Source: Tetradesmus obliquus (lineage: Eukaryota > Chlorophyta > Chlorophyceae > Sphaeropleales > Scenedesmaceae). Taken from it: DNA of 64,000 nt. The translations under genes and the position numbers were made by a program. Under the pieces are notes generated by a model. The model ran no database searches. It was not told where the DNA came from and was given only the letters and a program-made list of their open reading frames with translations. The stretch is from positions 6,563,501 to 6,627,500 of the forward strand of contig CP126194.1 of NCBI GenBank assembly GCA_030272155.1, in the 5' to 3' direction. Of this stretch, positions 1 through 64,000 are shown piece by piece (the stretch's first letter is position 1; each line of letters opens with the position of its first letter).

Positions 1-762
1 GGAAGCTGCTGTCCAGCAGAACGGTGCAAGTGCCGCAGAACGTCGATCGCTGTACTTTTCAACGTTTGAACCAGATGCAAGGCTCGTTAGACGCCGTAAC
101 GTGAAGCAGTACAGCACACATCATGCTGACCTGGCAAGTGCACACTTTCATTGAGCTGACTGGGCTAGCCAGCCATCAGCTGCAGCCGCAGAGTCACCAA
201 TTGACGTGTCCCAGCAAGCATGCACTGAAAGCGCACTTTTGAGGTGACTGAAAAATTTTCTTCATGTCAACAGGAACATGCAGTCTTTGCCCTGGCCTGC
301 AGATGTGTTGAAACAAAACCATGTGACTGGTCTGTACAGGCGCTGCTGCAACAGCGTGACGCACAGGCACGTCGGGACCAGCACATGTGCGTTGCAGATT
401 CACCAAGCTCACATGCAGGGGCAAACCAATCATCACGCTGTTTTCAGGTGTGACACCTTCAAGCTGTACTTGAGCTTCATAGCATTGGCCAATGGGCAGT
501 ACTGTACAGCAATGGCTGTAGCCAGGCTAAGCCTGCTGCCCTTGACTTTGTTATGTTTTTCTCCCATTGGATGAGTGTCGGATGCCCAACATCCGGCAAA
601 GCATTCAGTACGCATTACATAGCAGCTGTGTACGCACTGTCGAAAACCGTGTTCTTCATTGGCGAACGTCCTGGCAAGCGCGTGGCGATACTGCCGATCG
701 TGCACTGTAGTACTACTTCTGTAGAATCATAGCGTTGTATGCTAAGAACTCACAGCTGAACA
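1..762. other. no recognisable gene
   Basis: I see no ORF here with recognisable protein character or a chain of phase-compatible exons. It probably holds the end of an upstream transcription unit plus the promoter and 5' UTR of the SAC3-like gene that starts at 763. No TATA-like box stands out. Confidence 0.4.
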
Positions 763-2320
763 ATGTTTGGGCTTGTATCTGGAAGCACAGCAGGTACAAC
801 AACAGCAGCAGGAGCAGCAGCAGCAGCAGTGCCTGCTGATATACAGCTGGAATGGTTCGACCTGCGCAAGAAGGCCTTGCAGCTGCTCGATGAAGGCATA
901 TGTGCTGTAGATGCTGCAGATCAAGGTGAGCACACCGGGACACCACCACCACCTCAGCGCCCTTACAACAGCACACTGGTTCCGCATGTGTGCAGCTCCT
1001 GCAGGGGCTTGACTTGCAGCTGCTGAAGCTTGCTTGCGTGACTTCTCCTGTCACTAAGGCATCTAATTGCTGCACCTGCACCTCCTGTTGCTGCTGCTGC
1101 AGATCTGCGGCGCTGGGACGACATCGTGCTGCGTTTCAGGAAGCTGCGGGAGGCCCTCACAGCAGCAGCAGCAGCACCAGCAGAGCTGCGCTGCGAGGTA
1201 TGATACAGCGCCTCCCTGCTGGCTTGCCAGCTGCCACCTTGTCACTTGTTTACTGGCGCAGCACAGTCCTGAAACCCTTTTCTCAACTCCTACAAGCAAG
1301 GGCATGGGTGCAAACAAAATATCGTCGTGCTTGGAGTAGTAGTTGGGGGAAAATTTTGCGCTGCGTTGTCAGGTATGGTACACCACCACCCTGCCAGACG
1401 GCCAGCTAATCAAGTGTAGGAGCCAGCTGGCACCTTGTCTTTTGAACTGAGGTTGATGTTCAGGCCCATGCTTGCTGGCGCAGCACAGTTCATCACCCCT
1501 TCATAGATGGCTTCTACATGCAGAGGGTCGAACATGTTGCGCCTCGCTGCTCTGCATTGCTGCTTGTGCTGCTGCAGATGTATGAGCTGTCAGCAGTGGT
1601 GTGTGCGGCAGCACGCAACCTGGCAGAGCTGCTCAAATGGTGAGGTGCTCTGTATTGAGGCTGCACACAGTGATACGGCCCTCACTGCCAGAGCAACAAG
1701 CCGTTGAAAAGCTGCCGCTGCTGCATCCCCGGCATGTGTCTGGATTTCTGCAGCTCAGCAGTTGCTCATTTGATTGCTGAAGCGCCAATGACATGTGTCC
1801 TAGCCATGGGTTGACGCGCAGCCAGCAATCGGCAATTTGTTATGTGAAGCTGCGCATGTTGACACATCAAAGTGCTGTGAGGTCGCTGACTCTGCATGTC
1901 GCTGTGTTGCACAACCTACTCTGCTGCTGCTGCTGCTGCAGTCTGCAGCAGCTCGTGAACAGCATCTACCCAGCACAGCGGGCAGCAGCACAGTCAGCAG
2001 AAGCAGAAGCAGCCGCAGCGGCAGCAGCAGCAGAAGCAGAAGCAGAAGCAGCTGCCGACATGCCGTATGGTGCCTTACTGCTGCAGCAGCAGCCTGGGGT
2101 GCCGCCAGCCTTCACAAACACCAGCAAGAACCTTGAGCAGCAGCAGCAGCAGCAAGAGCAAGAGCAAGAGCAGCAGCTCCATCCCAAACTACATGAGCTG
2201 CATGTGCTGTCATCAGCCGACGTCAGCAGCTGCAGCAGCAGCAGCTATTGCACAGCCCTCATACAGGACTCGGGCGACCACAGCAGCAGCACCTCTGGCA
2301 TGCAGGGTAAGGCTGCTGCT

Positions 2321-2356
<36 letters not shown>

Positions 2357-2480
2357 CAGGCGCAGCGGCAGGCCGAGGTATCTGCTGCGCTGCTGCTGTA
2401 CTTTGTATGTATACCTCGGCAGCCCATCATGCAGGAGCTAGTGAAGCAGCTGAAAACTGCAGCATGCTGCTCTTTAGGCC

Positions 2481-2516
<36 letters not shown>

Positions 2517-4005: not shown

Positions 4006-4041
<36 letters not shown>

Positions 4042-6436: not shown

Positions 6437-9400
6437 ATGCTGCACGCTCAGCAGGGCCCTTTGCGGGCCAGCAACCTGCGCAAAAAACTCCATAGCGAGC
6501 AATTCAGACGTTTGAATGTTGTTTTATGCAGCCCCAAAGTAGATGTGCAGAAGGCAGAGGTGGTGCCGAGCTCACAAAGCACGTTGCTCAGTGCACAAAC
6601 AGCTACGAGCAATGGCAACGGCATCACCAACATGGGATCGGGAGAAAACTTGTCATGCAGCATCCTCAACAACGCTGGGGCACTGTGTGAGGATGACTTC
6701 GGCAAATTTGTTCAGTTCTTCCGCCAGGCTTCACCCTACATTGCTGGCCACAGGGCCAGAACGTTCGTAGTAGTCATACCTGGTGATGTAGTCATGCAGC
6801 AGGAGCTCCTGCAGACCCTGGTCAGCGACATCGCCCTGCTGCATGGCCTAGGCATCAGGCTGGTGGTGGTGCTGGGTGCAGCACCCCAGATAGATGCAGC
6901 ACTAGAGGAGCTGGGCAGCAGCAGCATGTTTGTTGGAGGCTACAGAGTAACAGATGCAGCAGCGCTGGAGGCAGCAGTGCAGGCTGCAGGACGCAGCAGG
7001 ACGGCGGTTGAGCAGTTCCTCAGCAGGGGCCCCTCGGTGCCTGTGTTCAGGCGGCATGCCAAGGGCGAGACAGAGATGCACTTTGGGCCTGCTTTGAACG
7101 TGGTCAGTGGCAACTATGTAGCAGCTAAACGGCGAGGCATCATTAATGGAGTGGACTTCGGGTACAGCGGAGAGGTGCGTGGTGCCATGGAGCAAGTCGG
7201 AGAATGCTGAGCATGCATGCAGCAGTAGGACTGCTGCACACTGCTTGGTCAACAGCGGGTAGAACAGCAGCAGCTGTGTGCGTTGCAGGACGCTGAGCAG
7301 CAAACAAGTTGCCTGCTTACCACTTGAAAGACCAAAAAGCAGTTGCAAACACACTGCTGCAGGCATGTGCTGCACCATATCCTTGCACCCGCTCTCCTTG
7401 CATGTACAGCAAGCAGCCGCTGTCTGCTCGTCATCGTGTTTGAAGCAGCACAAGCAGCAGCACTGACACCCATCCAGCAACTGTATGACACCTAGAAGTC
7501 TTGTGAGTCGCGCGCAAATCTGTGGTTCGCACCTACCATGCCGCTCTCGTCATTGCCTAATGACAAACCTCACACGTCTGACACCCACAACTCCCCATTG
7601 CCTCCATGTTCAGGTGCGCTTTGTGGCTGTGGACGCCATCCGCCGGCAGCTGGACAACGAGAACATCGTGCTGCTCAGCAACCTGGGCTTCACAGCAGGC
7701 GGCGAGGTGCTCAATTGCAACACCTATGATGTGGGGCTGCACGCCTCCATTGAGCTCAACGCAGACAAGCTCATCTGCCTGCATCTATCCGATGTAACGG
7801 AGATGCGGCTGCCGGCGTGGCTGCCGCTGAGCCGGGCACGCGACATGCTGCTGCAGCGGCTCATGGGGCACGTTTCAACAGCAAGCATTGATGTGGATGA
7901 GGCAGACAAGCTGCGGCGGCAGCTGCTGCAGGATGCGCAGCCGCCTCCTGCAAACGGCAACAGCAGCAGTAGCAGCAGCAGCAGCAGCTCGACTAGCAGT
8001 AGCAGCACCAGCAGTAACAGCAGTAGCAATGGCAGTAGCAGCAGCAGCGGCAGCAGGGATTGCCTGCTGAACCTGGACCTGTGGACAGATACGGGCTTCC
8101 CTACTGCTGTGGCTGTTGCTGTGGTGGCGTGCACCAAGGGCGTGAAGCGCGCACACTTGATTGATGCGCGCATGGATGGAGGGATGCTGCTGGAGCTGTA
8201 TAGCAGGTGCGCTGGCAGGGTGCTGCTGTTGCGCAACAGTGCATCTGTTGTAGTGCATGTGTGTTGCAGCTGACGGAGGTTGTACTGTTGGTTATGTGTG
8301 CTGTCGGAGCTGTACAGCAGGTGCGCTGCGCAGGTGTTGCTGTGTTGTAGCAGTGCATGGTGCTGTAGCTGGCAGAGTTTGTGTGGCTCATGGTGTGTGT
8401 GTTGCTGGTTTTGAAGCAAAGCACTGTGTTGCTTGCAGGAACGGCTGTGCCTGTGTGCTGCTGGCTCACTGGTTTGCTGTTGTGCAGCCTGAGCACCCTG
8501 CTTGCCGAGTCTGCTGCATCTGCGGCTGCTGCGGCATGTTGCTGCTATCCGCAGCTTCTGACTGTCTCACTGTCTCACTGCTGCTGCTGCTGCTGCCGCC
8601 TGCCTTGCTGCGCTGCACCTTGCAGGGATGGCGTGGGCACCATGATCAGCACAGACTTCTATGAAGGCATCCGCAAAGCACGCACCACTGACATGGAGGC
8701 CATCCAGGTGGGGACCGAGGGGCTTCAGGAGCTGGGGTGGGGTAGCTTGAGGCAAATGGCTTGGTGCTCGTGGTAGTGGTTGTGTGACCATTCTTGGTTG
8801 GGGTACAAGTACTCTGACCTGTGTTTGACCAGCCGTCAATCTACCAGCATGGCTGTAGCTGTGATGGAAGAGCTGCATATGTACTAGATGTAGCTGTGGG
8901 TTTGATGACCGATGGGGGTACTTGGCATATGTTTCCTAAAATTCAGCCCTTTGGATGCCAAGTAGCGGCTACACCATGCTGACGCAATGCTGCCGCTGCG
9001 CTTTTCCTGCCGTGTGTGTTGCCATGCTGTTCATGTACTGCTTCTTGTATCAGGCGCTGCTTGATCCGCTGGAGCGCACCGGGGTGCTGGTGAAGCGCAG
9101 CACTGAGGAGCTGCGGCTGCAGCTGCCAAACTTCACAGTCATCGAGCGCGAAACCAAGGTGAGCAGGACTGCCGGCAGATGGCCATGCAGCAGCAGCAGG
9201 GGCTGGGAGCAGCAGTGTCTGCAGCAGTTGTGCATACGACAGCAGAGGCTGCACCGTGTTTGAAAGAGCTTGACACACAACTACGTGCTAGTGCCCACTA
9301 GTGTCTCGACACACATCCTGCCAAACGCTTACGCTCACTTCTGCTGCTGCATACCTTGCCTGGCTTTGCCATCTGCTGCCGTGCGCCGTACTGCCGCAGG

Positions 9401-10269
9401 TGATGGGCTGCGCGCTGCTGCTGCCGCTGGGCGTGTCGCCTGACGGGCAGCGCGTGGCAGAGATTGGCGCCTTCTGCGTGGACGTGGTCTTCAGGGGCAC
9501 GGGGCGCGGCGACAGCCTGCTGGACTACGTTGAGCAGGTGAGATGTTGTTTGTTTTGAAAAATCAGAGGATGAGCAGAGGGGTTACTGTTCTGGTGCACG
9601 GGGCACGGCGACAGCCTGCTGAACTACGTGGAGCAGGTGAGAGTGCGGGGCGTCTCTTGATGTGGCAGCCGCCTAGCCCCTTGTTTGTAAAACATTTGTT
9701 AGTTATAGCAGAGTTCTTGCTGTTCTGGGGCAAGGCCCGCGGCGACAGCCTGCTGGACCTGTTGGCAGAACATTGTGTACGTAGTAGCACAGGCGTGGCT
9801 GTCCCGGGGCACGGGGCGCGGCGACAGCCTGCTGGACTACGTGGAGCAGGTGGGGGCATATCCAGGTTTCGCGCATTTGGTGCTGGTGACCGCACAGCGG
9901 CTGCTGCTGCATGTCATGTGGTTTTCACTGCATGAGCATGGCGTCGCATGCTTGAAAACAGCAGCAGCTTCCACGCGTGCAGATCTCCGCAACAAACAGC
10001 ACATTCAATGTTGATCATGCCGGCTGGCTCTGCCGCAGGACGCGCGGCTCAAGGGCATGGACCGCCTAGTGCTGCTCACCACGCGCACCGCAGACTGGTT
10101 CATGCAGCGGGACTTCCGGCTGGCCGGCCCCGCCTGGTGCAGCGAGCTGCTGCCGGCGGCGCGCCGCGAGCGCATCAACCCAGCACGCAACAGCCAGCTG
10201 TATGTGAAGGAGCTGGCGCCGCTGAATGATAAGAATCGGCAGAAGCCCGGCACGCGCATTGGCTTCTGA
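6437..10269 (+). CDS. N-acetylglutamate synthase (amino-acid N-acetyltransferase)
   Basis: Exons 6437-7174, 7614-8206, 8626-8707, 9054-9158, 9400-9537 and 10039-10269 join with every phase consistent (about 628 aa). The enzyme acetylates glutamate with acetyl-CoA, the first step of arginine synthesis; in algae this is plastidial, and the basic N-terminus (LRASNLRKKLHSEQFRR) suits a transit peptide. The amino-acid-kinase-like domain is clear: VVVIPGDV, GIRLVVVLGAAPQID, GGYRVTD, VDFGYSGEVRFVAVD, NIVLLSNLGF and LELYSRDGVGTMIS. The acetyltransferase domain follows, with VAEIGAFCVDVVFRGTGRG carrying the R-x-x-G-x-G acetyl-CoA loop, then LVLLTTRTADWFMQRDF. Odd: a serine-rich insert of about 30 residues (near 7960-8055) inside the kinase-like domain, and extra copies of the acetyl-CoA-loop exon end in intron 5. 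The ATG at 6437 is the first in frame. Confidence 0.95.
9494..9849 (+). repeat. four copies of the NAGS exon 5 end with donor
   Basis: The end of exon 5 (9494-9537), coding GTGRGDSLLDYVEQ followed by gtgag, is repeated in the next intron at about 9600-9636 (followed by gtgag), 9727-9768 (donor lost) and 9806-9849 (nearly perfect, followed by gtggg). The copies encode the acetyl-CoA-binding loop of the enzyme. Confidence 0.9.
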
Positions 10270-12170: not shown

Positions 12171-15052
12171 CTACTGCTGCTGTTGCTGCGTCGCTGCGCC
12201 ACCTTGGCTGCTGCCGCCGCTCTGCAGCTGCCCATCCTGCCCGATGCACTCCCAGATGAAGTTGCTGTTTGTGTACACACACTTCTCGGCAGCGATGCGC
12301 ATCGCACGCTGCGCAATGTCTAGCGGTTGCAGCCCTGGCACTGTCATCAGTGCACGCGCTGCTGCAATGGCAAAGCGTGACCCTGATCCGATTGCATGCA
12401 CGCCATCTGCCGGCTCCAGAAGTTCTCCCCTACCGCTGACCTCTAGGCAGGTTGTGGCATCTGCAACAATCATCGTGGCCTGCATGCAGGGCAGTGAAGA
12501 CAGCATGCCGCACGATACAAGTAATTTGTGTCCTAAGTTGCGGGAGGAAATCCTAGCAGGTTGCTGCAGTGCCGCTGGTGACAAGTGCTGCTGCGGACAG
12601 AAGCAGTGGCGTCTGCGACAGTCATGGTGAACTGCAGGGCAGGCAGCGCAATACACAATACTCGGGTGCAGACTGCTGGAACTGCAGCAGTGACGCTGTT
12701 GTCGGGCAGCATCCCATGCACTTGACATGCAAGCAGTTGCATGTGGTCATGTCGCCCTTGGACGTGGTACCTGAGCCACCCAGGTAAATGAGCACACCGT
12801 GAACACGAACATCATGTAGGGTAAGCACACGCTACACAAAATGAGAAACAAACACACGCGCGCACCTCCTGGTGCCGCAGCACCCTGTCCTGCCGCCAGA
12901 CCTTGGCCAGCTCCACATCATAGGATACGCGCACAGCAACAGGCACAGCAACCAAGATCTAAGAAAGTCAAAAATACCTCAAGGTGCCTCAGGACCCTGT
13001 CCTGCCGTCCGACCTTGTCCAGCTCCACATATTAAGATAAGCACACACAAACTTGCACAGCAACCAAGATCTAAGAAAGCCAAACATACCTCAAGATGCC
13101 TCAGGATCCTGTCCCGCCGTCCGACCTTGTCCAGCTCCACATCTTAGGAGACGCACACACAAACAGGCACAGCAACCAAGATCTAAGAAAGCCAAACATA
13201 CCTCAAGATGCCTCAGGATCCTGTCCCGCCACCAGACCTTGGCCAACTCCACAAGATGAGACACGCGCACACACAAACAGGCACAGCAACCACAGTATAA
13301 GCAAGTCAAACACACCTCAAGATGCCTCAGGATCCTGTCCTGCCGCCAGACCTTGGCCAGCTCCACTGCAGCGCGCCGCAGCTGCCCCGGGTGCTCCTGC
13401 AGCCGCTGCTCCAGCCGCTCAAACAACGTCAGCCCGTCAGCAGTGCTGCCTGCAAGCATATTTGAATCAGTGCAACTTGTTACAGTGCAACGTACTGTGT
13501 GTGAGGGTGAAAAGAGTGAGAGTGAGAGGCGAATGTCAACGCTGCGTGCCACGCCAAACAGCATGCAGCCATTGACAACTCAGCAATGCCTGTATGGCAT
13601 CGGCGACACACCCCGCCGTAGCTGGGCACTCCTAGCACACCACAGCATATGAACCAGTTGCCACAGGGCTTGCCTGCATGCCCAACATGCACGCAAAAGG
13701 TGTGCAAGCAAGCACACACGCACGCACGCATGCCCACACACACCTGCGAAGCCTCCCAGGCTGGGCACTGGCTCTGTTGCCAGCCGCTGTATGCTACTGT
13801 ATTACATTAGCACAAACATCGCCAGCAGCTGCGCGCACCCAACACGCCACAACATCAACCGCCATCTCATAAAATATATCATTAACACACCATGCGCGCA
13901 AAGCCCGGCACCCATGCACACACACCGCCACCTGTTACTAGCCGAGTGGATACGTCCAGCAGAGGTGGACGCTAACATGCGTGCTTGATAACGGGATGCC
14001 ACCCATCTGTTAACACACCTGCGAAGCCTTCCAGGCTTGGCGCTGGCTCCATCGCGCCCAGCAAGTCGCATCAACTGCCCACTTCTCAAAATCTGTCCTA
14101 CAAAACATGCACGCAAAGGCCCGCACGCATGCCCCCCCCCCCCCCCCCACACACACACACCTGCAAAGCCTCCCAGGCTGGGCACCGGCTCCGTGGCTAG
14201 CTGCCGCAGCTTGCGCGCGTTGGGCTTGACCACCTTGGAGCCTGCAGTGATCTGGCCGTCCGCCATCAGCACCACCTGGCGGTTCAAAAGACAACGTAAC
14301 CGAGAATGTTATGTTGTCATGTGACAGTGTGCGTATGCATTGGGCTTGACCACCTCGGCGCCTGCGGTGGAAGCTACGTGTTGCCTTGCAAATTTACAGA
14401 GTCCGTGTCGGCATGGAAGCACACATTGTCACAAAAAGCACTACAAATCTGATAGGTCGGCTGCAAAATTCAGAAGAAGGTGTGCATGCAGCTGCTGGGC
14501 TGTGTCGCACCTGCCCATCCTTGTGTATGCACAGCACAGTGGTGCCGTGAGGCATGTCTGAGTGGCCAGAGCCATGGTAGGCACGCACTGCTGCAGCGCT
14601 GCTGCGCAGTATGCTGCTGTGTAGGCTGCCACTAGTGCTGCTGCTGCTGCTGGTTGCCAACAGGCTCCTTGTCAGCAGGCACCCTGTGCAGGGCATGTAC
14701 AGGCAGGGGTTGCCAAAGCCACGATACATGACAAGTTCACAAGCCGTAACACACGAACTTGAAGATGAACAAACTGCCGAAGCGTGGAGTATGCAGTTGC
14801 CATGGCGCAAACGCAATCACACTTCCGTGCCTCAGCATTCCATGCAGCATGACCTGCCGAGGACAGCGATCCAGTCATCAGGCGTGAAAACAGATCTACA
14901 TGCAGGCACAATACAATGCAGCATGCATGGCAGTTGCACTGCAGTGCATGCCTGCTGTGGCTGTGCCAGTGCTTACCTTGTGCCTCGAGCAGTGCCAGCG
15001 CTGCTGCGCCCTGCAACAGCATGCTGCTAGCTTGCGCCTGCAGCATGGCCAT
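12171..15052 (-). CDS. hslV: HslV (ClpQ) protease subunit
   Basis: Minus-strand exons 15052-14977, 14683-14511, 14275-14161, 13449-13316 and 12479-12171 join in phase (about 268 aa). HslV is the N-terminal-threonine peptidase of the bacterial-type HslUV proteasome-like complex, kept in the mitochondria of some eukaryotes. The mature start is clear: an Ala/Ser/Arg-rich presequence of about 72 residues precedes [10 protein letters not shown], followed by [100 protein letters not shown] and AAEKCVYTN. Catalytic Thr is about residue 73. The usual short C-terminus is replaced by a Gly/Gln-rich tail ending in five Gln. The introns hold tandem copies of exon ends. The partner HslU is not in this window. 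Confidence 0.93.
12601..12636 (-). repeat. decoy copy of HslV last-exon start
   Basis: On the minus strand an acceptor-like ctgcag is followed by codons for [11 protein letters not shown]. This is a diverged copy of the true exon start [11 protein letters not shown] (boundary at 12479). It sits about 155 bases upstream of the real exon, within the same intron. Confidence 0.8.
12866..13368 (-). repeat. five-copy ~112 bp array of an HslV exon end
   Basis: The end of exon 4 (real copy from 13316, coding [16 protein letters not shown] plus donor) recurs in the following intron at about 13201, 13090, 12978 and 12866. Spacings are about 111-114 bases. Each copy keeps most of the 50-base coding core and a GT after it. 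The copies differ by a few bases, for example H-to-R and Q-to-R changes. Confidence 0.92.
13744..14205 (-). repeat. copies of the HslV exon 3 end with donor
   Basis: The exon end coding [13 protein letters not shown] plus gtgtg (real copy 14161-14205) recurs at about 14019-14051 and 13744-13790 within the next intron. A further fragment of the same exon (the GSKVVKPNA coding part) lies at about 14340-14370, upstream of the exon. Confidence 0.85.
14132..14160 (+). repeat. poly-C run plus (CA)n at an HslV donor
   Basis: Seventeen C residues followed by a CA dinucleotide run lie directly next to the exon 3 donor. On the transcribed strand the intron begins (GT)n then poly-G. Confidence 0.85.
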
Positions 15053-23657: not shown

Positions 23658-24570
23658 AGTAGAACACTGAAAGAATGGTGCACAAGAGCAGCTCATGGCA
23701 CTCAGTCTGCTGCACATGGCCAGATGAACTGCGAAGGCGGGTAAGGTTAGTAGTGCCTGGAAGATGACGGTATATTGACGTATCGTGATGGCGGTAAGTG
23801 TGAGCAGAAGAAGCGGGAGAGCCTAAAAATTGACGGTGCTGCTGCAGTTTTAAATGAAAGTGGGCAGTGCCCACCAGCTGCGCGGTATAGTGATATGCCC
23901 CAGCCTGTGCAGGGAAGTATGGCCGGAGATGGGTGTGGTGCTCACTAATTGAAATGGGGGTAGAACATTGTGAAAGTGAGTAGGGAGTAATTCTACTGTG
24001 GCTGGTGCAATGTAGGATGTTTCGTCAGAAACAGAGTATTGGGCATTGGCAGCCGCTGTGACATGCGGTGCAAAATTTGCCACCGAATGTTGGCAGAAGT
24101 GGGAATCATGGAAAGTGGCCAAGATGATCTGTGATCTTGTTGAGAAAGTTGGTGGTGCAGTACAGGCTGATTAATGTGTAACAGAGGATCGTAACATGTG
24201 ATGGGGGTTGTGACAGGAGAGGTAGAGTGAGAGGGTAGTACTGACTATACTACGACTCCTGTGCACATTCGGATGAATATTGAACATACCCGGCCAAATA
24301 CGTCGACCATCTCCCCCAACATATCTGTACACACAATACTGTGTCTAGTCTGCCAGATCCAGTGCTTGTGACAGTATGTGACCAGTAAATACAGGTGATA
24401 AAAAGTGCACACTGGATACTGTCTCCAGGCCAAAAGAGCCAGTGCTTGTGATAATGTTGCCAGTATAACTTGTAACAGCAGGTGACAGAAAATATACAAT
24501 AGCAACTGGGCAGGGGCAGGAGCAACTAGACAACAAATCACTCACGTCATTGTATATTGTGCAAGCAGCA

Positions 24571-24618
<48 letters not shown>

Positions 24619-25190: not shown

Positions 25191-27090
25191 ATGATCGCAA
25201 CTACATCATCTCGTGCCGGCCTGTCAATGAACCGTCTTGGCTTGGGCTGTTCGCGGCAATCTGCATTGCCAGGCGCCATTACCTCAAAGCAGCAGCGCAG
25301 GGTGGTGATGCGTTTCAAAGAAGACGACTCCGCACTCGATGTGCAGTCAAGTTTGAAAGCAGTGCAGCAGGAGCTGGAGCAGCTGCCATTCGCTGCGCCT
25401 CGCAGGGGTTCAGGCACCAGGCTGTCTCCTGAGCAGCAGCAGGAGGTGGGGACACGCACACAGTGTACAGCAGCAGCTGTTTGCGGCCTTGGCATCATTG
25501 CCTTGTCCTTCGGTGCCAGGTTCTCAGACAACCCTGCTTGCTTGGTGATTGAAAAACAGAACTGCACCATTTGCAGCAGGGTGTCCTGTGCATTGGCTTG
25601 CCAGGCCAGACTTGAGGATGCCTGCTGCAGTGCATTTGCCACAGAAACAGTGCATGCACTGTAGAGCCATATATACACAAGTATGCTTGTCTTTCACCTT
25701 GACGCCCCACCTCTGCAGATAATGAACTCGGAGCCGTTCAACATCTCTCCTCGCATGGCTGAGCTGCGTGCTGACATGGGCAAGTCAGCAGCAAACAACC
25801 TGTCAACACTGTCCACCTTTGACGGCCCAGCACCAGAGACCATCAACGGTGCGTGACACCTGAGCTCCCAACGGCAACCATATGTTTATTTTTAGGCAGC
25901 ATATCGCTTTCGAATGCAGCTGCCCTACGTGCACTGTGGTTTGGAGAAGCTGCTGCTGACAGACAGAGACGACGTGTTGCTGAATCACCCAGCTAACAGT
26001 AGGCAGGGCTTGCTTACACCCACTGCTGTGCTTTTGTCACTCAGCTGCAGCTGCAACTTGAAGCGCTATTTTATCTACCTTAGCAAGTCAACATCTCACA
26101 TACAACCCGCATTTGCACACTGCCTGCTCACAGGCCGCCTGGCAATGCTGGGTGTGGTGGCTGGCCTGGCTGGTGGGTACTCCACAGTCAGGACAAGTGT
26201 CACTCAATCCGCGGCATTGCTGCTGTGCTGGCTTGTTTTCTTGCAGGTTGCCTGGCACTGCTGGGTGTGGTGGCTGGCCTGGCTGGCAAACAATTCACAA
26301 TCAGACAATGTGTCACTCAGTACGCGGCGTTGCTGCTGTACTGCCTTGTTTTCTTGCAGGCCGCCTGGCAATGCTTGGTGTGGTGGCTGGCCTGGCTGGC
26401 GAGTGGTCCACTGGCATGGGCCTGGCACAGCAGACTGCAGACCACCCAGCGGTGGTGTTTGCAAGCTACGTCATCCTGGCTATTGCCACCTACACGCCAC
26501 TCATCAAGTAAGCGGATGGCATGACAGCGGCTGTGTGTGCATAGCAGCCTGTACAAGCCGACTTGCAGGCGCTGTACCTGTGTGGCAGAGGAGAGGCACC
26601 TCTTGTCCAGCGCATGTGTACATTTTGTTGTTTGTGCAGATCACATCTTCGCAACACCACTTTTGCACATTTTTTTGCGTAAGCTGAGAGCATGGACTGT
26701 TGCTTTGCCGGCTCATTGCTGCTGCTGCTGCGGCTGCTGCTGCTGCTGTCCATGGCTGCTGCAGGGGCTACACGCGCAAGGAGCCCTTTGCCAACACCAT
26801 CCTGGACCTCAACTGGAGCCCCAAGGCAGAAAACTGGAACGGCAGGTGTGAACGAAGTCTGTGTTACAGCCCGCTCAGCGTTGGTGCACCAGCATCGAGG
26901 TGACGCACGTCGCAAATCAATGAACAGCATCATTCCTTCCAAGATTGTAAGGGCGTGCACGTACTGTGTGCTGACGGTTCCAAGAAATGCAACTCATAGC
27001 AAGTGACAGCGTTGCTTGGACTTGGTATGTTGACTGGTGCTGGACCAACAGGTTATGAGTCAGAGGTAGCACACCTAACCGCTGTGCTGG

Positions 27091-27124
<34 letters not shown>

Positions 27125-36606: not shown

Positions 36607-39284
36607 GCAGCAGTAGTAGCAGGAAGACGGCAGCAACAGCTGAGGTTGACAGTGCACCATGCGTTGTGCAGCAGGACAGCAGCTGAGTGGGCTGAAGGCC
36701 CTAGCTGAACTGGCTGGTGCGCAGGTGTGGTGCAGTGTATCACCCTGCAGCAGCACGTGGAAGCGCAAGCCTGGACTCCTCACTGCACAGCAGCCAATCC
36801 ATCAACTCACAGGCTGAAATATTTAGACGGCACCAGTCAAACGCAATAATTGGCAAGCGCTGCACAATACCCAGGCCTCACCCAGCAGGCATGCGCCACA
36901 CCGTGGTTCGGGCCGACAAAACAGCGGACGACAAAACAGCGGACGACAAAACAGCGTGCAAAACAGCTGATGTGACCGTGCTCTCACCCAGCAGGCCGGC
37001 AGCTCGCAGTTGCGTCATACACAGCAGCCAGCACACGCTAGGCATGTGTTCAAAAACACCGGAAGCAACACTTCAAGCAATCTTGATGCAGCGCCTCACC
37101 CAGTAGGCCTGCAGCTCGCAGCCTTGCCAAACACAGCAGCCAGCACACGCTAAGCATGTGTTCAAATAGACCGCAAGCAGAAACACTAGAAAACTGGTGA
37201 CAGTCTGGATGCAGCGCCTCACCCAACAGGCCAGCAGCTCGCAGCCGCGCCAGCACCGCCCGCAGCCGCTCCGGCCGCTCATGATTTGGCGGCAGCAGGC
37301 CCCGATGCAGCTGCATGGCAGGCTCAGGCTCTAACTCCTCATCTTCCCAAGCTAGCAGCGTAGTCGGCAGCTGCAGGATCCCAGCATCCTGCAGCAGCTG
37401 CCGCGCCTGCTGCAGCGCAATGCCGGCCTCGATTCGCTGACTCAGCGCGGCCGTGCTGCGCAGCGCGGCGGCTGCGGCGGCGGCTGCGGCGGCTGCGGCG
37501 GAGCCGGCGGCGGCGGCTGCGGCGGCTGCGGCGGCTGTTGCGGCGGCTGCTGCGGCGAGGCCCTGCTGCTGCTGCAGCCAGGGCGGGCTGTGTGCGGTGA
37601 GTTCTGCTTGGGATGTTATGCCGAGCGTTAGTAACAGCGCGTCGTCTGTTGGTAGGTGGCCGCAGCTTGAGCAAGCTGCAGCTGGGCGTAGCGGGTCCAG
37701 GGGTGCACAGCAGTTGGTGCAGAAGGAGGCTGGCTGCCGCAGAAATTTGTAACGGGCGTCCGGCTGCTGCTCCTGCTGCTGCCCTGCTGCCGCTGCTGCG
37801 TCCTCAGCCTGCAGTGTTGGCATGCAGCACAAGGCATTGATAGAGTGAGGCCAGAACATGACATGTTGACGAGAGAAGCGATGCAGCTGCGGCATGCTAT
37901 GCAGCACGTAGCACATAATATGTATCAAACACAGAACCACCCTGCCGCCGAAAGTAACATGCCTGGTGAGGTGCCAGCAGCATGCCTGGTTGAAGGCCAA
38001 CAGAGTTTTGCGGCTCACCTCTGGCTGTAGCCCACTGCTGCTGCTGCCCACGCTGCTTGCAGGAATCTGATCCAGGATATCCAGCAGCCGCATTGCATAC
38101 TGTGGGTCGTTTGCGATGTCAACAGTCGGGTCTATCAGCGGAGGAGGTGGTGCTGCTGACGCCTGCTTAACCGAACTGCTGCTGCTGCTGCTGCTCTTGG
38201 GAGCGGCTAGCAGCTCCTTCGCCTGCTGGATTGCTGCTGCTTCTATTTCAACTGCTGCCTCTGCCTCTGCCGCTGCTGCTGCCTCTGCCCCTGCTGCTGC
38301 CTGTGCTGCAGTTGCTGCCTCTGCCACTGCTGCCTCGGCCTCGGCCGCTGCTGCTGCTGCCTCTGCCGCTGCCGCCTCTGCTGCATCTGCTGCTTTCGCT
38401 GCATCTGCTGCCTCTGCCACTGCTGCTGCCTCGCCTGCAGCTGCGGCCTCTGCCGCTGCTGCTGCTGCTGCTCCTACCGCAGCTGCTGCCTCCGCTGCTT
38501 CCAGTCCAGGCTCCGCGGTAGCGCCACTGCTGCTTGCAGGATCAGCTGCCGCTGCTGCTGCTTCTTCAGGTGCTGCTTCTGCTGCTGCTGTGTCAGATGA
38601 AGCAGCAGCAGATGTGTCGCTGATGGACGCCTCAAGTTCTACTGCTGTGTCGCCGCTGCTGCTGCTGCTGCTGCTGCTGGTGGTGGTGGTGCTCGGATCA
38701 ACACTAGGTTGTGTGCTTGGCGCTGCTGCCTGCAGCTCCTCTGCTGTAAAGACAATGTAGTCTGGTGCAGATGTCACAATGTTTGCAACCATGGCCTCTT
38801 CTGCTGCTTCATCCTCTGCACCACCTGCTGCACTGCTACCCGCTGCTGCTTCCCCTGCCAGTGCTGCTGCTGTTAGTCCTGCAAGCGATGCCTCTGCTTC
38901 TGCTGCCTCAACTAGCCTGTCTGCAGCTCTTATTCGTGCTGCAGCTGATGCTGAGGTTGTCAATGCTTCAACATTTCCAGCTCCCGCCTGAGCAGCACCT
39001 GAAGCAGTAGCTGTGTCTGCTGCTTGAGTTGTTGACGGAGCAGGAGCCAATGTAGGATCAGGAATTCCTGCAGGTGCTGCTGCTGAGCTGTGGGGCTCTG
39101 TAGTACTGCCATCTGCAGCTGCAGAGAACGCTGATATACGTCTCCCGTGTCTTGATTGAGCTACAGCTGTAGATGGACGGGCCTGGACTCCCGCATGCCT
39201 AGATGTGTGCCACAGCAGTAGCTGCTGCTGCCCAGTAAAGCGACAACCCGGCCTTGACAGTCGACAGGGCAGGCTGCGGTGCAT
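31267..39284 (-). CDS. histone-deacetylase-family protein, large, altered active site
   Basis: Minus-strand exons 39284-38019, 37808-37223, 36542-36380, 36159-35941, 35747-35664, 35302-35182, 34946-34811, 34131-33957, 32763-32513 and 32261-31267 join in phase (about 1331 aa). Order: Ala/Glu-rich N-terminus of ~420 residues; a CxxC...CxxC zinc ribbon (FCTNCCAPL...CSSCGHL, ~450-475); class II-type deacetylase domain (~600-920); an acidic stretch ([18 protein letters not shown]); and an Ala/Gln-rich tail. Domain motifs: [93 protein letters not shown]. Zinc ligands Asp746, His748 and Asp851 and the catalytic-type Tyr889 are kept, but the usual His-His pair (~709-710) is His-Val and DVHHGNGT is DVHHCKGT. 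It may be catalytically weak, inactive or act on another substrate. Numbering is mine. Confidence 0.88.
32717..32876 (-). repeat. two copies of the HDAC exon 9 start
   Basis: The exon start coding [13 protein letters not shown] (boundary 32763) has an upstream copy at about 32836-32874, spaced about 111 bases, with acceptor and CTG-rich tract. The copy codes [11 protein letters not shown] in another frame. Confidence 0.85.
33267..34059 (-). repeat. four copies of the HDAC exon 8 end with donor
   Basis: The exon end coding [21 protein letters not shown] through LRGTR plus gtgcg (real copy starting at 33957) recurs from about 33738, 33494 and 33267, spaced about 219, 245 and 227 bases. Each copy keeps about 100 coding bases with very few changes and the GT. 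These copies carry the catalytic tyrosine (GGY). Confidence 0.93.
34060..34640 (-). repeat. five copies of the HDAC exon 8 start with acceptor
   Basis: The exon start coding [20 protein letters not shown] (true boundary 34131) is repeated upstream with boundaries at about 34266, 34398 and 34533, a period of about 132-135 bases. A fifth, degraded copy lies near 34590-34640. The acceptor tgcgcag or tgcacag is kept in the intact copies. Confidence 0.93.
36556..36606 (+). repeat. (CAG)n microsatellite in HDAC intron
   Basis: About 16 CAG units (CTG on the transcribed strand) immediately upstream of the HDAC exon 3 acceptor, where it takes the place of the pyrimidine tract. Confidence 0.88.
36989..37250 (-). 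repeat. three copies of the HDAC exon 2 end with donor
   Basis: The exon end coding LRAAGLLG plus gtgag (real boundary 37223) recurs with boundaries at about 37100 and 36989, spaced about 123 and 111 bases, in the next intron. Confidence 0.88.
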
Positions 39285-57707: not shown

Positions 57708-60700
57708 ATGGCGCATCTGGCCGCACGCCTGCAGCCAGGATTCTCTTTGCAGCAGCAACGCAGAGCTTGGCCAAGTTGCAAGCACCAAGTAAGTCGAAAC
57801 AGCAATGACCACCAGAGGCAGTGCCTCAGCCGCTTACAGTTGTTGCAGCCCCAGGCATGGTCTGCCGCACGCTCGGCAGCTACCTGGCCCTTTCATGCTG
57901 GCATGCCTTTGCTTACGCGCTGACGATGCTTGCATGCAAAAGGCACCAGCCACCGCAACACCAAAAGAATGAACTCCTGACCCTTCATATGTACATGCAG
58001 AGAGGCAAAAACATCAGAGCTTCTTGGGGCAGTGGCGCCAGCAGCAACACAGGCACAGAGCGCTGGTGGTCCAGCACTAGTCAAGACAGCAGCAGCAGCA
58101 AGCCGCAGGAGGAGCAGCAAGCACAAGACAGCAGCGGCGGTGACAGGTGGTCGCACCTAGTGAACAGAAACCCGGGCTCCCCGTCGTATAGCGGCAATGG
58201 TGGTGGCAGCAACAGCAGCAGCAGCAGCGGCGGCAGCAGCGGCTATCAATCAGGCAGCTACGCATATGGCAACACTGGTACGACTGGAAGCAGCTACGGC
58301 TCTAGCTACGGTAGCAGCTACGGCGCTTCTGCTTCTCAGCCGGACAACAGCACCCCTAAAGAAGAGAGCAGCAGCGATGCCACGCCTGTCATCAGCAGCA
58401 GCAGCGCTGCACAGTCTGGCAATGCAGCCCCCTGGGTGGTGCTGGCGCTGATTCCCACTGTGCTGTGGTGTATCACTTGGTGAGCGCTGCTTGGATCATC
58501 ACTAAACACGCTTTTGCAGCATCAGTGGCACCAGCAGCAGCTGCTGCATCTGGTAGCACCAGCAACCGCTACTGCGTCTGCTGTAACGTGAAACAATCAG
58601 CATAGCACCTGCCAACACCTCCATGTCTTGCATGTGCGCCAAGGCCAAGCACACCGCCGTGTTACATACCGCTATGTTACTCAACTGTTACATGTCAAAT
58701 TCACAAATGTGCAGGTGCCTCACTGGCGGCATGGTCACGCTGGCCAACACCTCCATGTCTGGCATGTGCTCCATGGCAGCGCTGCTGTTCCCTCAGCTGC
58801 CAGTCAAGGGCGTTGACTACGAGGACATCGCAGTCAGCCTGGTCAAAGCTCTGCACAGCAACACTGACGCACCCAGCACCTGGGCGCGGCCAGGTGATTT
58901 CAGCAGACATATGACAGAGTTATGCATGATTTGGTGCAGGAATGCACTTGCTGTGCCGCTGTACGGCGAGCTGGGATGAAGGCCATGCAATGTGTGATGA
59001 ATGCATGTGCGTCAGCGAGTGGCGCGGCAGCGGGTGTTGCTGTACACAGCAGCTGCACAACCACCAAGCTGCTGCTTGTGCTGCTGCTGGCTCAGCTGGC
59101 TGCGTTGTTACTTCCTGCTGCTGCTGTGTCTGCTTGCAGGACTGCTGGCCCCAGCTTGGCTTCTGCGAGGATTGATGGCGGCTATGTTCAACCTGGCCCA
59201 TGCAAGCTCCGGCGTCGCTGCAGCCCTGATCCCAAGTAGGTGCTCCGACTGTTGCAGAGCAAGCCATGGCCAGCATTCAGTGTGCTGTTCACAAAAAGCA
59301 TTCAACCACTGACTGCGCTGCCGCGCTGCTTCTACCCTGTGTCTGCACGCTGTACATCTGCTGCATGCAGGCCTGATCAACTTCAACTATAGCGTCATAA
59401 CAGTGCTGTTGACAAACATTGCGTTTCCTGCTGTGTTGCTGCTCTGCCTCTGCTGCATCCAGGCCAGCAGCTGCTGATGGTGTCGGGTGTGTCCCAGGGC
59501 CTCATGTACGCCACCTGCCTGCTGCTGATGATGCCGCTTGGGGCCGGCCTGCGCAGCCTGGCGGCTCAGCTGCTGGCGCTGGCGCAGCGCAACAAGCTGC
59601 AGTTGCCCAGCATCAAGCTGCCCTTCAGCCTGCCCAGGTGAACAGCAGTCAGTGAATGCTAGCAATGCTGTGCGTTGTGGCTTTTTAGGGTTTGGGATGC
59701 GGGCCGCGCAGTGTATCCACATGTCCGTGCGTTACGTAACCACATATCTGCTGCTGCATGCATGAGGGCGTGCCTGTCCCCGGCGTCTCAACTAGAGCGC
59801 TTTAAACCAGCAGGTGGTAGTTGGAGCTGCTCTCTGTGCCTGACGAGTCTGTCAGCGGCTCTTGAAGTGTGCGTACATTCGCCTCAAGCACGGCCCTGCT
59901 ATGGTTTATCATGTGCCTCTGCCTTGTTGCATGCAGCTTCAGTGACAACACCTACCTAGCATTCACGTTGGCAGTGCTCACCATCAGAGACAGCTTCAAA
60001 TTTTTGATTTGAAATATGTTTTCTCTGTCGTGCTTGCCTGATTTTGGGTGCAGCTTCATGGACAACACCTACCTGGCACTCAAGCTGGCAGCGCTCACCA
60101 TATCAAATCGCTGTTGAATATTTCTTTTTTCCTTGCTGCGCTTGCCTCGCGCTGTCCCCACTGAAAACTGAGCCCGCTATATATGATGTTTCTCTATTTT
60201 TCTGCTGCGCTTGCTTGTTATTGCGTGCAGCTTCAGTGACAACACCTACCTGGCACTCAAGCTGGCAGGCGTGCTGGCGTGGCCCTGCATCAGCGTGGCG
60301 GCAGTGCTGCAGCCTTCGGCAATGGCACACAACTCCTTCACTGCCAACTTCACTGTGGCAGCGCTGCAGGTGGGTGCGCTTGCATGTTTAGTTACAACAC
60401 CACGTCACAACTGCATGCACTGTGTTTGTTTTTGAAACAAGCAAACAGAAAATGAAGCATGGCTGGGACGCTGCACAAAGAAGTGTGCGGCCGAATCTTT
60501 TATGGCAGCTTTTCGCCGGCTGTTTTGTTGTGATGAACGGACTGCTGTTGGTGCTGCTGCATGGGTAGGTGGGTGCGGACCGGCACACATCTGAGAGCAT
60601 TTCGTGTTCTCTTGCTCTGTGCTGCACCGTAGGTGGGCGTGTGCACACTGCTGCTGGCGCTGCTGCTGTCAGTGGCAGTCGCAGCGGGCCGCTTTGCGGC

Positions 60701-61149
60701 GCAGCTGGGCCGCCGCACGGCCACGACTGACGCAGTGCTGGGCTTTGGCTTTCAAGTTGGCGGCCTTTGTGCTGCAGCGGGGCTGCTGAATGTGGCTCAA
60801 ATTGGGCTGGGTCTGGCTAGTGGCCTGCTGGGGCCCCTGCAGCTAGGTGAGTGTGTGTTCGAGTGTGTTTGTGTGCACCCCAAGCCAGCTACATCAGCAT
60901 CTGCTGTTAGTGACGTTGGTGGTAAACGTATATGATAACGTAAACGAATATGAGTGAGTACTGGTGATGTGTGTCACCCGGCATGCTCAAGATACGCTGC
61001 TCAGGTGATGTGCTGCGTCTGGTGGCACACAACTGCCATGTGAGTCTGCCCCGCCCTGCGCCGCTGCAAGGTCTGCTTGGCAGTTGCTTGATGCTTCTTA
61101 CTCGGCCGCATTACCACCAGCTCAACAATGCTCTTGAACTTGCACACGC

Positions 61150-61183
<34 letters not shown>

Positions 61184-61351
61184 CGCTGGTTTTGTGCAGT
61201 GGTTCCTGCGGTGTCCACGCTGATTCTGGCGCGTGTGGTGTGGAGCGTGTGGAGGCTGCACCGCATTGGCGATGCCACGCCTTCCATCTGGCTGCAGCTG
61301 CTGACACTCACACCTGGGCTGCAGCTGCCAGCATCCAAGAGCAGCAGCTGA
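57708..61351 (+). CDS. multi-pass membrane protein of unknown function
   Basis: Exons 57708-57788, 58001-58479, 58715-58893, 59140-59235, 59371-59402, 59471-59637, 60231-60369, 60633-60846 and 61200-61351 keep phase throughout (about 512 aa). The N-terminus (MAHLAARLQPGFSLQQQRR) looks like an organelle transit peptide. A soluble Ser/Gly/Tyr-rich region of ~130 residues follows ([24 protein letters not shown]). Then come several hydrophobic segments: APWVVLALIPTVLWCITW, GGMVTLANTSMSGM, LMYATCLLLMMPLGAG, GVCTLLLALLLSVAVAAG, FGFQVGGLCAAAGLL and VVPAVSTLILARVVWSVW. I do not recognise the family. The joins around the short exon 5 (59371-59402) are the least certain part. The 5' exons could instead be a separate gene, but the phase-2 join at 58479/58715 fits one gene. 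Confidence 0.6.
59937..60275 (+). repeat. three copies of an exon start in the membrane-protein gene
   Basis: The exon start at 60231 (coding FSDNTYLALKLAG, acceptor gtgcag) has earlier copies at about 59937 (FSDNTYLAFTLAV) and 60055 (FMDNTYLALKLAA), each after an acceptor-like gcag. The spacings are about 118 and 176 bases. Confidence 0.92.
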
Positions 61352-64000
61352 TGGGGCGCTGCAGAGATACAATAGGCTGCAGGAAACAAGCTGCTACCTG
61401 CAGGAAAGTGCGGCGGCGCAAAGTACAGCTTGCGCTGCTGCAGCAATGGGCTGCAGGTGTGGTCCGACTTTATGCTGGCTGGTGCAGAGAGGAACAGCTC
61501 GCATGAAAGCTGGTTGGCAGAGCTGCGGGTGAAGCGCATATGCGCATGCATGCTAGTATGAGGGGGGTGCAGCTGCGGTGAAATTGCTGTTGTTTCTCAC
61601 TTCAGCTGGCACGTTGTGGTGCACGGCATTGGAGATGTTGCACTTTGTAAGTACGAGTGTTGCGTGACAAACCAAAACAACCAAGGTTTGGCGTGCGGTT
61701 GGGCGGAGGGAAAGCAGCCAGTACTGTTCAGTGTAGCGCTGACAACGCTTTGGGCTCTTGTGAGCAGCGGCCACACACATGTCCTCGGCTGTCGTGACGC
61801 CGGGACTGGCAGCCGAATTGACTTTTGACTGGTTGACTGACTGTTTGGATGTGTGGCATACAACTGGCGCTGTATCTGGGAGCAGGCTGTGTGCAGTTCA
61901 ACTTGTTGTCACCAGGGCTAATAGCCAGGTGCTAGGCGAATATGTGCATGAGCTAGCGGAGCGTGAGCAGCTGTTGTGGAATAGTATGTGCCGCTTGGCG
62001 CTGGCTTCTTCAGCATAGTAGCATGCGTCAAACATGTGCTGCAGTCTTTGTGTGCTTGCAAGCTTCGGGCGTGCATGTAACTTGGGTTACGTGCATGAAT
62101 TGCATGCATTGTACCATGTGCCACACAGGGCGCTGTGCTCTTGTTTTTTCTTGACAGTGTTCCTCATATGCATGCTGCATGTCACATGCAGTGCATGCTA
62201 GTGGAGTGGTTGCTGCTGTTGGGTGTTTTGGAAGCAGGCACGAACAATGCAAATGCATATCATTGGCACTGATGTTGCGGAACAGTGCATTGCCAGATTG
62301 CCAACCGCCTGCTGGAGTCTGCCGCTGTGAACCATCAGCACAAAATAGGGTGGTGCTTTGAATGGGCGATTGCCACGCGACTCCGTTAACCGCGGCGCCA
62401 GGCTATGGCCTGATTGGTAACAAACATCACCACCTTCACCACCACGTGATCCAACAAGCCATAGTCCTCCTTGCAACACAACAACAAAAACATACATAGC
62501 CACTGCGCCTGCTTGCCAGTGCATGTGTAGCATGTAACACAGCTGGAACATTATGCAGCGCAGTTGTAAGCATATATATGTTGGTGCATCACAGCACCCT
62601 TAGGCATTGCCACACACCGCAGATCGGCGTCGTAACTGGGTAACCAGCAAATCTCACCAGGTTGCCATAATAGGGCCACAGGCCCACCCACTAACTAGCC
62701 AGACAAGGCTCATGGGGCCCACAAAACACCGAGATAGTAGCTCTGAAATTGAGCAAAGTCTAATTCAAATCAAGCACAAGCAGCACACACTGTGCTCAGC
62801 GGCATCCACTGCAACCATCATCAGCACCAGCACTGTGCTAAGCGGCATCCTGTAGCAAAAGCAGAGTCCTAGGGGGGCAACAGGCCCACTCACAATTAAA
62901 GCCAAAAAGGGCTCATTAAGGCCAGCAAATCCGTGACAAACTGTCAACATCAGCAAACTGAAAGCAAGCAAAGTCTGACTCAAATCAGCGCAAACAGCAC
63001 AAATTGTGCTAAGCGGCATCCACTGTGACCATCATCAGCACCAGCACTGTGCTAAGCGGCATCCTGTAGCAACAGCAGAGTCCTAGGGGGGCAACAGGCC
63101 CACTCACAGTTAACGCCAAAAGGGGCTCATCTAGGCCAGCAACCGTGACAAACCATCAACCTCAACTGGCTGAAATGGAGCAAAGTCTAAGATCAAGCGC
63201 AAGCAGCACAAATTGTGCTCAGCGGCATCCACTGCAACCATCATAGCACCGTGCTGCAGCACAGTGTGCTAAGCGTCATCCTGTACCAACAGCAGAGTTC
63301 TGAAGGGATAGCACCATCAATTGACACATCGTTTGACACATCATCCTGTAATCGGCCATCCGCCATATCCGCCCTGAGCCATGCCAGCAGTTTACTACAT
63401 ACACCATGATTCATGCTTCATGCACGTGCATCATGGTTCATGAAGACATGCACATGCATGCATGCCACGGGTACAGCAAATGCAAAGTCTACACATCGAG
63501 CTCCAGCCAGAAGCAATTTAAATCATTGAACCAGCGCTCAGAGTGCAGGCTCAAAGCATCGACAAGCAAACTCAAGCCTGGATCCGCATTCAAGGGTTCA
63601 ACACAGCGTATGAACATCAACAGTTGTTATGTTGCTGTACACTTGCAAAGGCTGGAAGCCGTGCCTTGCAAAGACAAACCCACTCTGAAGTCCAGCTGTA
63701 GGTCGAATCAACAATTGAATGCAAGTTCGGCAGCCCAAGTCATCAAATGCATCTCGAACAGCAATTCAACACGCCCGCGAGCGCAATTCATCACCGCAGG
63801 GTGATAGGGCGCTAACAACAGAAGACTTCCTGCCACGGGCATGCACATGTGTGCCAGCGGCCGGCCATACGTGCAGAGCTGCAGCCACATAGCAGCGCTG
63901 AAAAAGCGGCCACACAACACACTGCTTTCAGTACTGCACAGTGCGGCAGAACAGTGCACCAGTTTCTGCTGATCAGCAACTCCAATTGCAAGTATGAGTT
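61352..64000. other. no recognisable gene; satellite at 62.6-63.3 kb
   Basis: After the membrane-protein stop I see no ORF with protein character. The main structure is the tandem repeat at about 62640-63300. The last 700 bases contain tgcatgca-type palindromic words near 63400-63470 but no gene. Confidence 0.45.
62640..63300 (+). repeat. ~214 bp tandem satellite, about three copies
   Basis: The marker gctaagcggcatcctgtagc occurs at about 62836 and 63050, with a variant (gctaagcgtcatcctgtacc) at about 63268, spacing roughly 214-218 bases. Units also share gggggcaacaggcccactcaca, ggggctcat, gccagcaa, gtgacaaac, agcaaagtct and agcggcatccactg. Within a unit, agcggcatcc occurs twice, suggesting an older internal duplication. 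Confidence 0.88.

Follow-up and report, generated by a model that had tools for sequence, protein, structure and literature searches.

Introduction

How introns come to hold near-copies of the exon edges that bound them, splice site included, is the question raised by a 64,000-nt stretch of the genome of the green alga Tetradesmus obliquus (contig CP126194.1, C4 below, positions 6563501-6627500), which is called the window here. A sequence-only reading of the window had described introns with tandem, slightly diverged copies of the adjoining exon's last or first bases together with the donor or acceptor, in genes of unrelated function. We call copies that lack the rest of the exon orphan copies.

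In this study, we counted such copies in the window and in DNA sampled from other contigs, and analyzed on which side of the exon they lie, how they are spaced, how far their likeness extends into the intron, and how they differ among each other. The explanation we prefer, to which we give not quite an even chance, is that tandem duplications of about 125 bp straddle exon-intron junctions and that their copies are then homogenised by recombination where coding selection pins one of them.

Materials and methods

The genome assembly comprises 104.66 Mb in 17 contigs with a GC content of about 56%. For sampling, 20 systematic ten-kb stretches were taken from C1-C3, of which 17 were usable. Two of the 20 (L013 and L021) consisted over nearly all 10 kb of dense satellite-like direct repeats with a GC content of 0.48-0.49 and are perhaps centromeric. 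Four further stretches from C2, picked since two rich stretches sat on this contig, one stretch each from C5 and C9, and small kinase loci were added. Including the window, 321,531 bases from 32 sources were scanned (stretches are named L0xx).

Gene models were predicted from sequence alone with a simple, conservative splice-aware hidden Markov model (HMM) trained on the same DNA, which yielded a CAG/GTGAG-like donor and a TGCAG/G-like acceptor (the slash marks the junction). Runs of the trinucleotides GCA and CAG were very common across the window and threw off unsupervised gene finding. Window clusters were called as direct repeats at a distance <1500, and a copy at an exon edge was called at a score >=34. 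For sampled exon edges, predicted exons of >=60 nt were used and copies were sought within 600 bp. The names NAGS and ELIP are labels taken over from the sequence-only reading.

Results

Copied exon edges in the window

The window contained 11 direct-repeat clusters at E<=1e-6, 12 at 1e-5, and 13 at 0.05, whereas five dinucleotide-shuffled windows gave none at 1e-6 and 1e-5 and 0, 0, 0, 0, and 1 at 0.05. Among 30 hand-set exons of seven gene copies (three ELIPs, HDAC, HslV, NAGS-like, and a membrane protein), a copy was present on the correct side, i.e., downstream of a tail or upstream of a head, at 10 edges: one in the NAGS-like gene, two in HslV, one in ELIP-B, five in HDAC (two of them on one exon), and one in the membrane-protein gene. 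On the wrong side, a score of 34 was reached once, in the membrane-protein gene. Introns carrying copied exon edges with their splice sites, the core of the sequence-only reading, were thus borne out, and HDAC, for which four places had been named, has copies at five edges. The gene list stood for these five genes and fell for ELIP-C, where none of four exons was copied (correct-side scores <=23), and for the TPT transporter, for which no array was found, the gene itself, like those of LYR and SAC3, not being located. Between 38 and 58 kb of the window, no cluster appeared even at E 0.05. With five genes confirmed, the figure of at least seven of fifteen genes is therefore not upheld; weak clusters (Table 1) might add to the five. 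In ELIP-A, none of five exons was copied (correct-side scores <=23), and a cluster at 62743-63301 with a period of 215 had no convincing junction.

Side rule, spacing, and density in the sampled genome

In 321 kb, window included, correct-side copies were found at 24 of 91 predicted exon tails and at 18 of 88 heads. For tails and heads, respectively, the controls gave 0/61 and 1/58 with exon middles, 0/91 and 0/88 with the reverse complement, and 0/84 and 0/82 with another gene's flank, pooled 1/464. The comparison of introns with exons that the sequence-only reading had proposed as a genome-wide check came out in its favour in these 321 kb, the copies going far beyond shuffled sequence in the window and beyond the controls in the sampled DNA. 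Its statement that the copy at one end of each array joins the exon body also held, with tail copies downstream and head copies upstream. Wrong-side copies amounted to 9/91 tails and 9/88 heads in the raw count (18/179), and to 0/71 and 2/69 for exons of >=100 nt (2/140). We take many of the raw wrong-side matches to be orphan copies miscalled as exons; the HMM gene finder took orphan copies for exons at window positions 9580-9636 and 9769-9849, for example. This is a warning to gene annotators.

A sliding profile reached its maximum of 16/69 (donor) and 11/73 (acceptor) at the exon edge and, directly past the junction in the intron, dropped to 2/62 and 1/60. Deeper in the intron it rose a second time, up to 8/64 (donor) and 6/71 (acceptor), because the segments there probably match other copies. 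A strong splice site was common to the copies in 31 of 48 clusters from the first 261,531 bases, compared to a mean of 10.7 and a maximum of 17 for mutated random segments in 40 rounds. Arrays with junction plus exon body made up 64 of 86 clusters (a descriptive count without a null), 30 of the acceptor type and 34 of the donor type.

The smallest spacing per cluster had a median of 125 bp (interquartile range 111-142), and 45 of 86 values fell between 110 and 139. Simulated detection at 12% divergence (30 trials each) was 0.90-1.00 at 80 to 500 bp, 0.53 at 60, and 0 at 40. Since detection stays high up to 500 bp, the upper fall-off of the spacing is real, while a lower limit below about 70 bp is not established.

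The 86 clusters in 321,531 bases lie in unrelated genes, in agreement with a property of the genome instead of a single family. The dense occurrence noticed in the window holds overall, but the spread is uneven between stretches and genes. The 17 usable systematic stretches contained 34 clusters in 170 kb (11 in L022, 10 in L023, none in seven stretches). Densities were 0-2 clusters per 10 kb in seven usable C1 and five C3 samples, and 5-11 in six samples on C2 (5.5-7.0 Mb), C5 (1.5 Mb), and C9 (1.5 Mb), namely L022, L023, L029, L031, L033, and L034. By gene strand, copies were present at 6/7 predicted exons of L034(-) and at 0/8 of L009(+). The 86 clusters include L026 7844-8399, which proved to be coding repeats and no junction array. 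There, a basic, RLEKGYAVQ-like coding unit of about 38 residues (114 bp) is repeated in tandem about five times at 92%; we presume a resemblance to the Rubisco-linker (EPYC1-like) protein.

An assembly artefact is hardly credible as the source of the arrays, because the copies differ by 0-21% from the real edge (49 pairs), have a preferred spacing, are tied to junctions, and obey the side rule. Also, the HDAC and HslV reading frames are intact.

Copies alike in the exon edge and unrelated in the intron flank

In 49 copies (29 edges), we compared the exon part with the real edge and, separately from it, the adjoining 80 bases of intron, the flank being scored as homologous at p<0.02 and as none at p>0.05. 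Two of the 49 derive from predicted exons which probably are orphan copies in their own right (window 9769-9849, L022 4101-4163). A detectable intron part (p<0.02) was kept in 22 of the 49 copies (full-unit copies). At exon identities >=0.93 (n=22, exon part 93-100%), the flank was homologous in nine copies, none in 11 (edge-only copies), and between in two; at 0.85-0.93 (n=23), it was homologous in 11 and none in 12. After removal of the two doubtful exons, HDAC 33957-34131, and L032, the upper class consisted of 10 edge-only copies, nine full-unit copies, and one between (n=20). Under simulated neutral tandem duplication, the flank went undetected in 1.3-6.3% of the class >=0.93 and in 10-18% of the class 0.85-0.93; the simulated test drew on a smaller null pool. 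Only this undetected share was used, as the presence of the copy's own flank in the pool makes the simulated homologous share unreliable.

Simple copy-and-decay does not account for the edge-only class. Plain neutral debris, by which duplications fall anywhere and those touching an exon stay recognisable longest as the exon side is unchanging, is therefore already disfavoured as the sole cause, and we consider it unlikely; the recombination signal and the HDAC third-position bias described below also speak against it. The sequence-only reading had named neutral slippage debris among its explanations, which suits the second HslV array, where the exon part is 90-94% identical and the flank homologous in 3/3 tested pairs, i.e., the spacer is repeated too, and one of the two ELIP-B copies, but not the edge-only copies. 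It had also proposed to test whether copies are younger than the flanking intron: in about half of the copies, a young-looking exon part stands next to intron that looks old or unrelated.

Many copies are alike only in the exon edge and the splice-site letters, such as 46 nt at 98% in L015 and 45 nt at 98% and 79 nt at 95% in L034 (flank p 0.15, 0.55, and 0.87). Such copies would be expected if a junction-tied process, either RNA-templated repair or template switching from exon to splice site, pasted the edge with its splice site. We rate this edge-limited copying as rather improbable, since both classes are mixed within arrays and their spacing is similar, with neighbour medians of 130.5 for edge-only and 118.5 for full-unit copies (24 each). 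In L034, the orphans at 5186 and 5288 are identical in exon part and tested flank, their neighbours alike in the exon part only. A gene named after its CWC22 homologues (E 1e-61) holds two orphan heads that differ neither in the exon part nor in the tested flank; two further heads have 40-41 exon bases in common with this pair and no detectable spacer likeness. Several arrays have a common exon-side border despite differing spacers (41/41/40, 40/40, and 63/65 nt). Similar spacing and often-shared borders favour homogenising exchange over edge-limited copying. L027 2385-2555, an edge-only candidate by ungapped identity, was rejected, as its flank was homologous by local alignment.

Exchange between copies and codon-position pattern

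Four-gamete conflicts occurred in all six arrays with informative site pairs: HslV 9/15, HDAC tails 8/10, HDAC heads 3/9, L023 3/6, and two arrays of L022 with 1/1 and 22/36. Simulations without exchange gave conflicts in 4-5% of informative pairs at 9-10% divergence, 9-10% at 17%, and 13-14% at 26%. At 9-10% divergence, the observed counts of HslV, HDAC tails, HDAC heads, and L023 were reached in 0, 9, 46, and 30 of 600 simulations, respectively. The excess of conflicts in several arrays suggests exchange between copies.

Differences fell on codon positions 1, 2, and 3 in 44, 38, and 143 cases. Third positions accounted for 51/54 differences in HDAC exon 33957-34131, 16/18 in L032, and 76/153 in all others, the latter in line with neutral debris, for which our own rough expectation is about 45%. 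Outside HDAC and L032, the third-position share was 40/80 in edge-only and 35/71 in full-unit copies. HDAC variants found in at least two copies were synonymous in 10/10 cases. In 36 arrays (HDAC exon left out), 152 synonymous and 121 non-synonymous codon changes were counted, with heterogeneity between arrays (p 0.003, L032 included). By this pattern, many copies seem to have been neutral from the start, and others, foremost those of HDAC, look as if once coding.

The large array at L032:143-1848 is made of almost complete copies of an 87-nt exon that have changed mainly at third positions; it may be a true repeated-exon gene. The head copy at L029:5339-5591 differs at seven of 84 nt, by eye without any amino-acid change, and belongs to a gene which we take, from a motif, to resemble a DEMETER-like DNA glycosylase.

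Deeply diverged alleles from a hybrid or hyperdiverse population, with exons differing only synonymously and introns unalignable, could supply copies of this kind. The HDAC counts (51/54 and 10/10), the L029 head copy, and the heterogeneity between arrays point in this direction; the equal third-position shares of edge-only and full-unit copies do not, and we regard such a source as very unlikely. An HDAC paralogue on C14 was rejected as source, as most of its changes are missing from the copies, although these match it at 2-4 of their differing sites.

Orphan splice sites

GT was kept in 30 of 39 orphan donors and AG in 24 of 34 orphan acceptors, raw counts in which several losses are one-base alignment offsets by eye and three rows are no real donors. 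From the identity of the exon parts, 0.846 and 0.839 were expected. The splice-site cores are thus kept no better than the exon part, as neutral debris would have it, and no selection for orphan sites is seen. The sequence-only reading had considered a function of the orphan edges as putative decoys or as a reservoir of alternative splice sites. The many sites kept would agree with such a role, but retention does not exceed expectation, and high-identity copies have few third-position differences and so are unlikely to be old conserved elements; on this sequence evidence a selected function appears improbable. Old conserved orphan elements as such were disfavoured by the few third-position differences from the real exon beside unrelated spacers. 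Exon ends in AG were not enriched at donors with copies (16/24 vs 46/68), which also argues against a selected function, and 3/18 exons with head copies start with GT. As AG/GT was not enriched, we also rejected the idea that the copies are tolerated because their splice sites are dual-specific.

Gene arrays of the window

The coordinates of the window arrays are listed in Table 1. Seven HDAC exons (36541 down to 32600; exon 37223-37420 excluded) joined without orphans align to HDAC6 (whole-sequence E 1e-120), and the HslV exon chain joined in the same way aligns through to an HslV homologue (4e-45). Since both align with solved homologues without them, the orphans of these genes lie outside the conserved protein. 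The second HslV array has 4.4 copies with 87% matches (Tandem Repeats Finder). The two diverged HDAC tail copies at about 37100-37125 and 36988-37013 each carry GG/GTGAG, with a period of 112. In the NAGS-like gene, a GNAT domain was found (Pfam E 1.8e-8); one open reading frame of ELIP-B matched no Pfam family. Three tandem ELIP-like paralogues occupy 22186-30369, with alignable exons, mostly unalignable introns, and an array in the middle one only. By three-paralogue alignment and scores, the ELIP-B array has no counterpart in ELIP-A and ELIP-C, the one case that bears on the state before duplication.

Table 1. Copied exon edges and weak clusters in the window (positions within the window; tail-down, head-up: score of the exon tail downstream or of the exon head upstream)
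Feature	Position	Strand	Remark
NAGS-like (GNAT) exon, tail copied downstream	9400..9537	+	tail-down 83, wrong side 19
NAGS-like orphan tail copy, donor CAG/GTGAGA	9589..9636	+	90% over 48 nt
NAGS-like remnant tail copy without donor	9723-9758	+	
NAGS-like orphan tail copy, donor CAG/GTGGGG	9795..9849	+	93% over 55 nt
HslV exon	14161..14276	-	HslV homology; tail-down 58
HslV tail copies of exon 14161-14276, donor CAG/GTGTGT in both	near 14019-14049, 13744-13787	-	
HslV exon, tail is first unit of second array (112-bp period)	13316..13449	-	homology; tail-down 85
HslV four orphan tail copies with donors	13202-13252, 13090-13140, 12978-13028, 12866-12916	-	span 12866..13252
ELIP-B two orphan head copies with acceptors	26131..26287	+	exon starts 26134 and 26247, period 113
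ELIP-B exon, head copied upstream	26360..26507	+	head-up 75
HDAC exon 37223-37420 (putative) and two diverged tail copies	36983..37420	-	tail-down 35
HDAC decayed tail copy of exon 34812-34946	34716..34740	-	tail-down 38
HDAC four orphan head copies with acceptors, period ~135	~34592-34644 (partial), 34454-34533, 34319-34398, 34187-34266	-	span 34187..34644
HDAC exon, head copies upstream and tail copies downstream	33957..34131	-	HDAC6 homology; head-up 70, tail-down 85
HDAC three orphan tail copies with donors	33739-33838, 33494-33592 (1-nt deletion), 33267-33366	-	span 33267..33838
HDAC exon (part used) and one head copy upstream at 32830-32871	32600..32763	-	head-up 74
Membrane-protein head copies with acceptors	start at 59937 and 60054	+	
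Membrane-protein exon	60231..60370	+	head-up 66
Weak clusters	8185-8368, 20492-20667, 58611-58777		

Discussion

Duplication across the exon-intron junction, which the sequence-only reading had named as a model, is likely the basic event. Exon part, splice site, and intron part are duplicated side by side in HslV, in the HDAC heads, in L022 8530-8855, and in one ELIP-B copy, and full-unit arrays fit tandem duplication. In the explanation we prefer, tandem duplications of about 125 bp would arise within genes of T. obliquus, also at the birth of edge-only copies. Those straddling a junction would be tolerated because the exon body still adjoins an intact splice site, the spliceosome presumably pairing the two sites nearest to the real exon; under exon definition, sites outside the real exon would be expected to be passed over. 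As the exon body keeps its working site, tail copies would gather downstream and head copies upstream. The copies would later recombine among themselves and probably also with the working edge, by gene conversion or unequal exchange. The exon-derived part and the splice site would stay alike because coding selection holds one partner constant, while the spacer without a fixed partner would diverge and fall out of homology. By analogy, the 125-bp unit could conceivably be set by staggered-nick fill-in, which according to PMC8355091 yields small tandem duplications in mammalian cells, most of which extend over almost the entire overhang (43 bases for the construct described).

Several points weigh against homogenisation by a pinned partner. 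All evidence consists of the DNA letters of one strain's assembly. Of 11 chosen arrays that were tabulated for variants, six gave informative site pairs. At 17% divergence, the observed conflict counts were reached by 18, 129, 186, and 156 of 600 simulations (arrays in the order given above), so that HDAC and L023 are weak singly; the two L022 arrays stand outside these simulations, and the HDAC-tail conflicts rest partly on a decayed fifth copy. Exon-side borders are unequal in other arrays (67/48, 45/54, and 53/44 nt), and the almost exclusive third-position differences of HDAC are not predicted by exchange within one lineage. Finally, exchange should hold spacers alike for a while too, and the sharp limit at the splice site is therefore not fully explained.

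A further-reaching reading, which we consider doubtful, is that working edges and intronic copies form one recombining pool. Copies would be refreshed from the coding exon and able to rewrite it, introns would archive coding variants (synonymous ones in HDAC), and exon edges would evolve in concert with intronic templates. If so, junction anchoring would be a genome-wide fingerprint of conversion against a selectively pinned partner. The arrays may serve as a test bed for how introns grow, for whether coding and intronic DNA are coupled through short ectopic gene conversion, and for how near-perfect duplicates of a splice site, about 125 nt away from it, escape the spliceosome.

Comparison with known systems

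Introner elements provide a similar recurring structure in many introns of one genome. An introner-like spread was not found for the two arrays searched genome-wide, both of which were private to their own genes: the HDAC query hit its own locus and one paralogous exon, the CWC22 query its own locus and, beyond that, short matches, which with one exception fell into a single repetitive stretch. Tandem duplication of whole exons was not found either, the copied part usually being 30-80 nt from one side of a longer exon, with L032 as possible exception.

No published description of such arrays was found in the open-licence PMC literature searched. In the potato RdRp gene, a tandem duplication that crosses an intron-exon boundary has been described (Ma, Lan and Niu 2016, PMC4974935), with duplicated intron end, splice site, and exon start as in T. 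obliquus. A single event there gave one extra copy and a new spliced intron, whereas the arrays of T. obliquus are multi-copy, recur across unrelated genes, can be left out of the conserved protein (HDAC and HslV), and often have non-homologous spacers. Intron gain by AGGT duplication was not found in HDAC and HslV, whose copies sit inside introns with outer exons that join. In the polyubiquitin gene UBC, arrays of dual-specific splice sites are likewise tandem and carry AG/GT sites, as far as the excerpt of PMC10809524 goes; unlike these, T. obliquus donors with copies have no AG/GT enrichment, and acceptor-type arrays are nearly as common as donor-type ones. In Cryptococcus CNN00420, introns were created by repeat expansion (excerpt of PMC2395259), which concerns whole introns in a repetitive gene, in contrast to partial exon edges in mostly ordinary genes here. 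Closest by lineage are Chlamydomonas reinhardtii and Volvox carteri, also green algae, in which tandem repeats are enriched near intron-exon junctions and concentrated at intron ends (Zhao 2013, PMC3887541); the excerpted text names motifs such as GT/AC and a 17-mer and does not describe copies of exon edges or splice sites. Duplications that span a junction, and repeats biased towards junctions in green algae, have been published before; by the literature searched, what appears new in T. obliquus is the density, the spacing, the side rule, the edge-only retention, and the probable recombination among copies.

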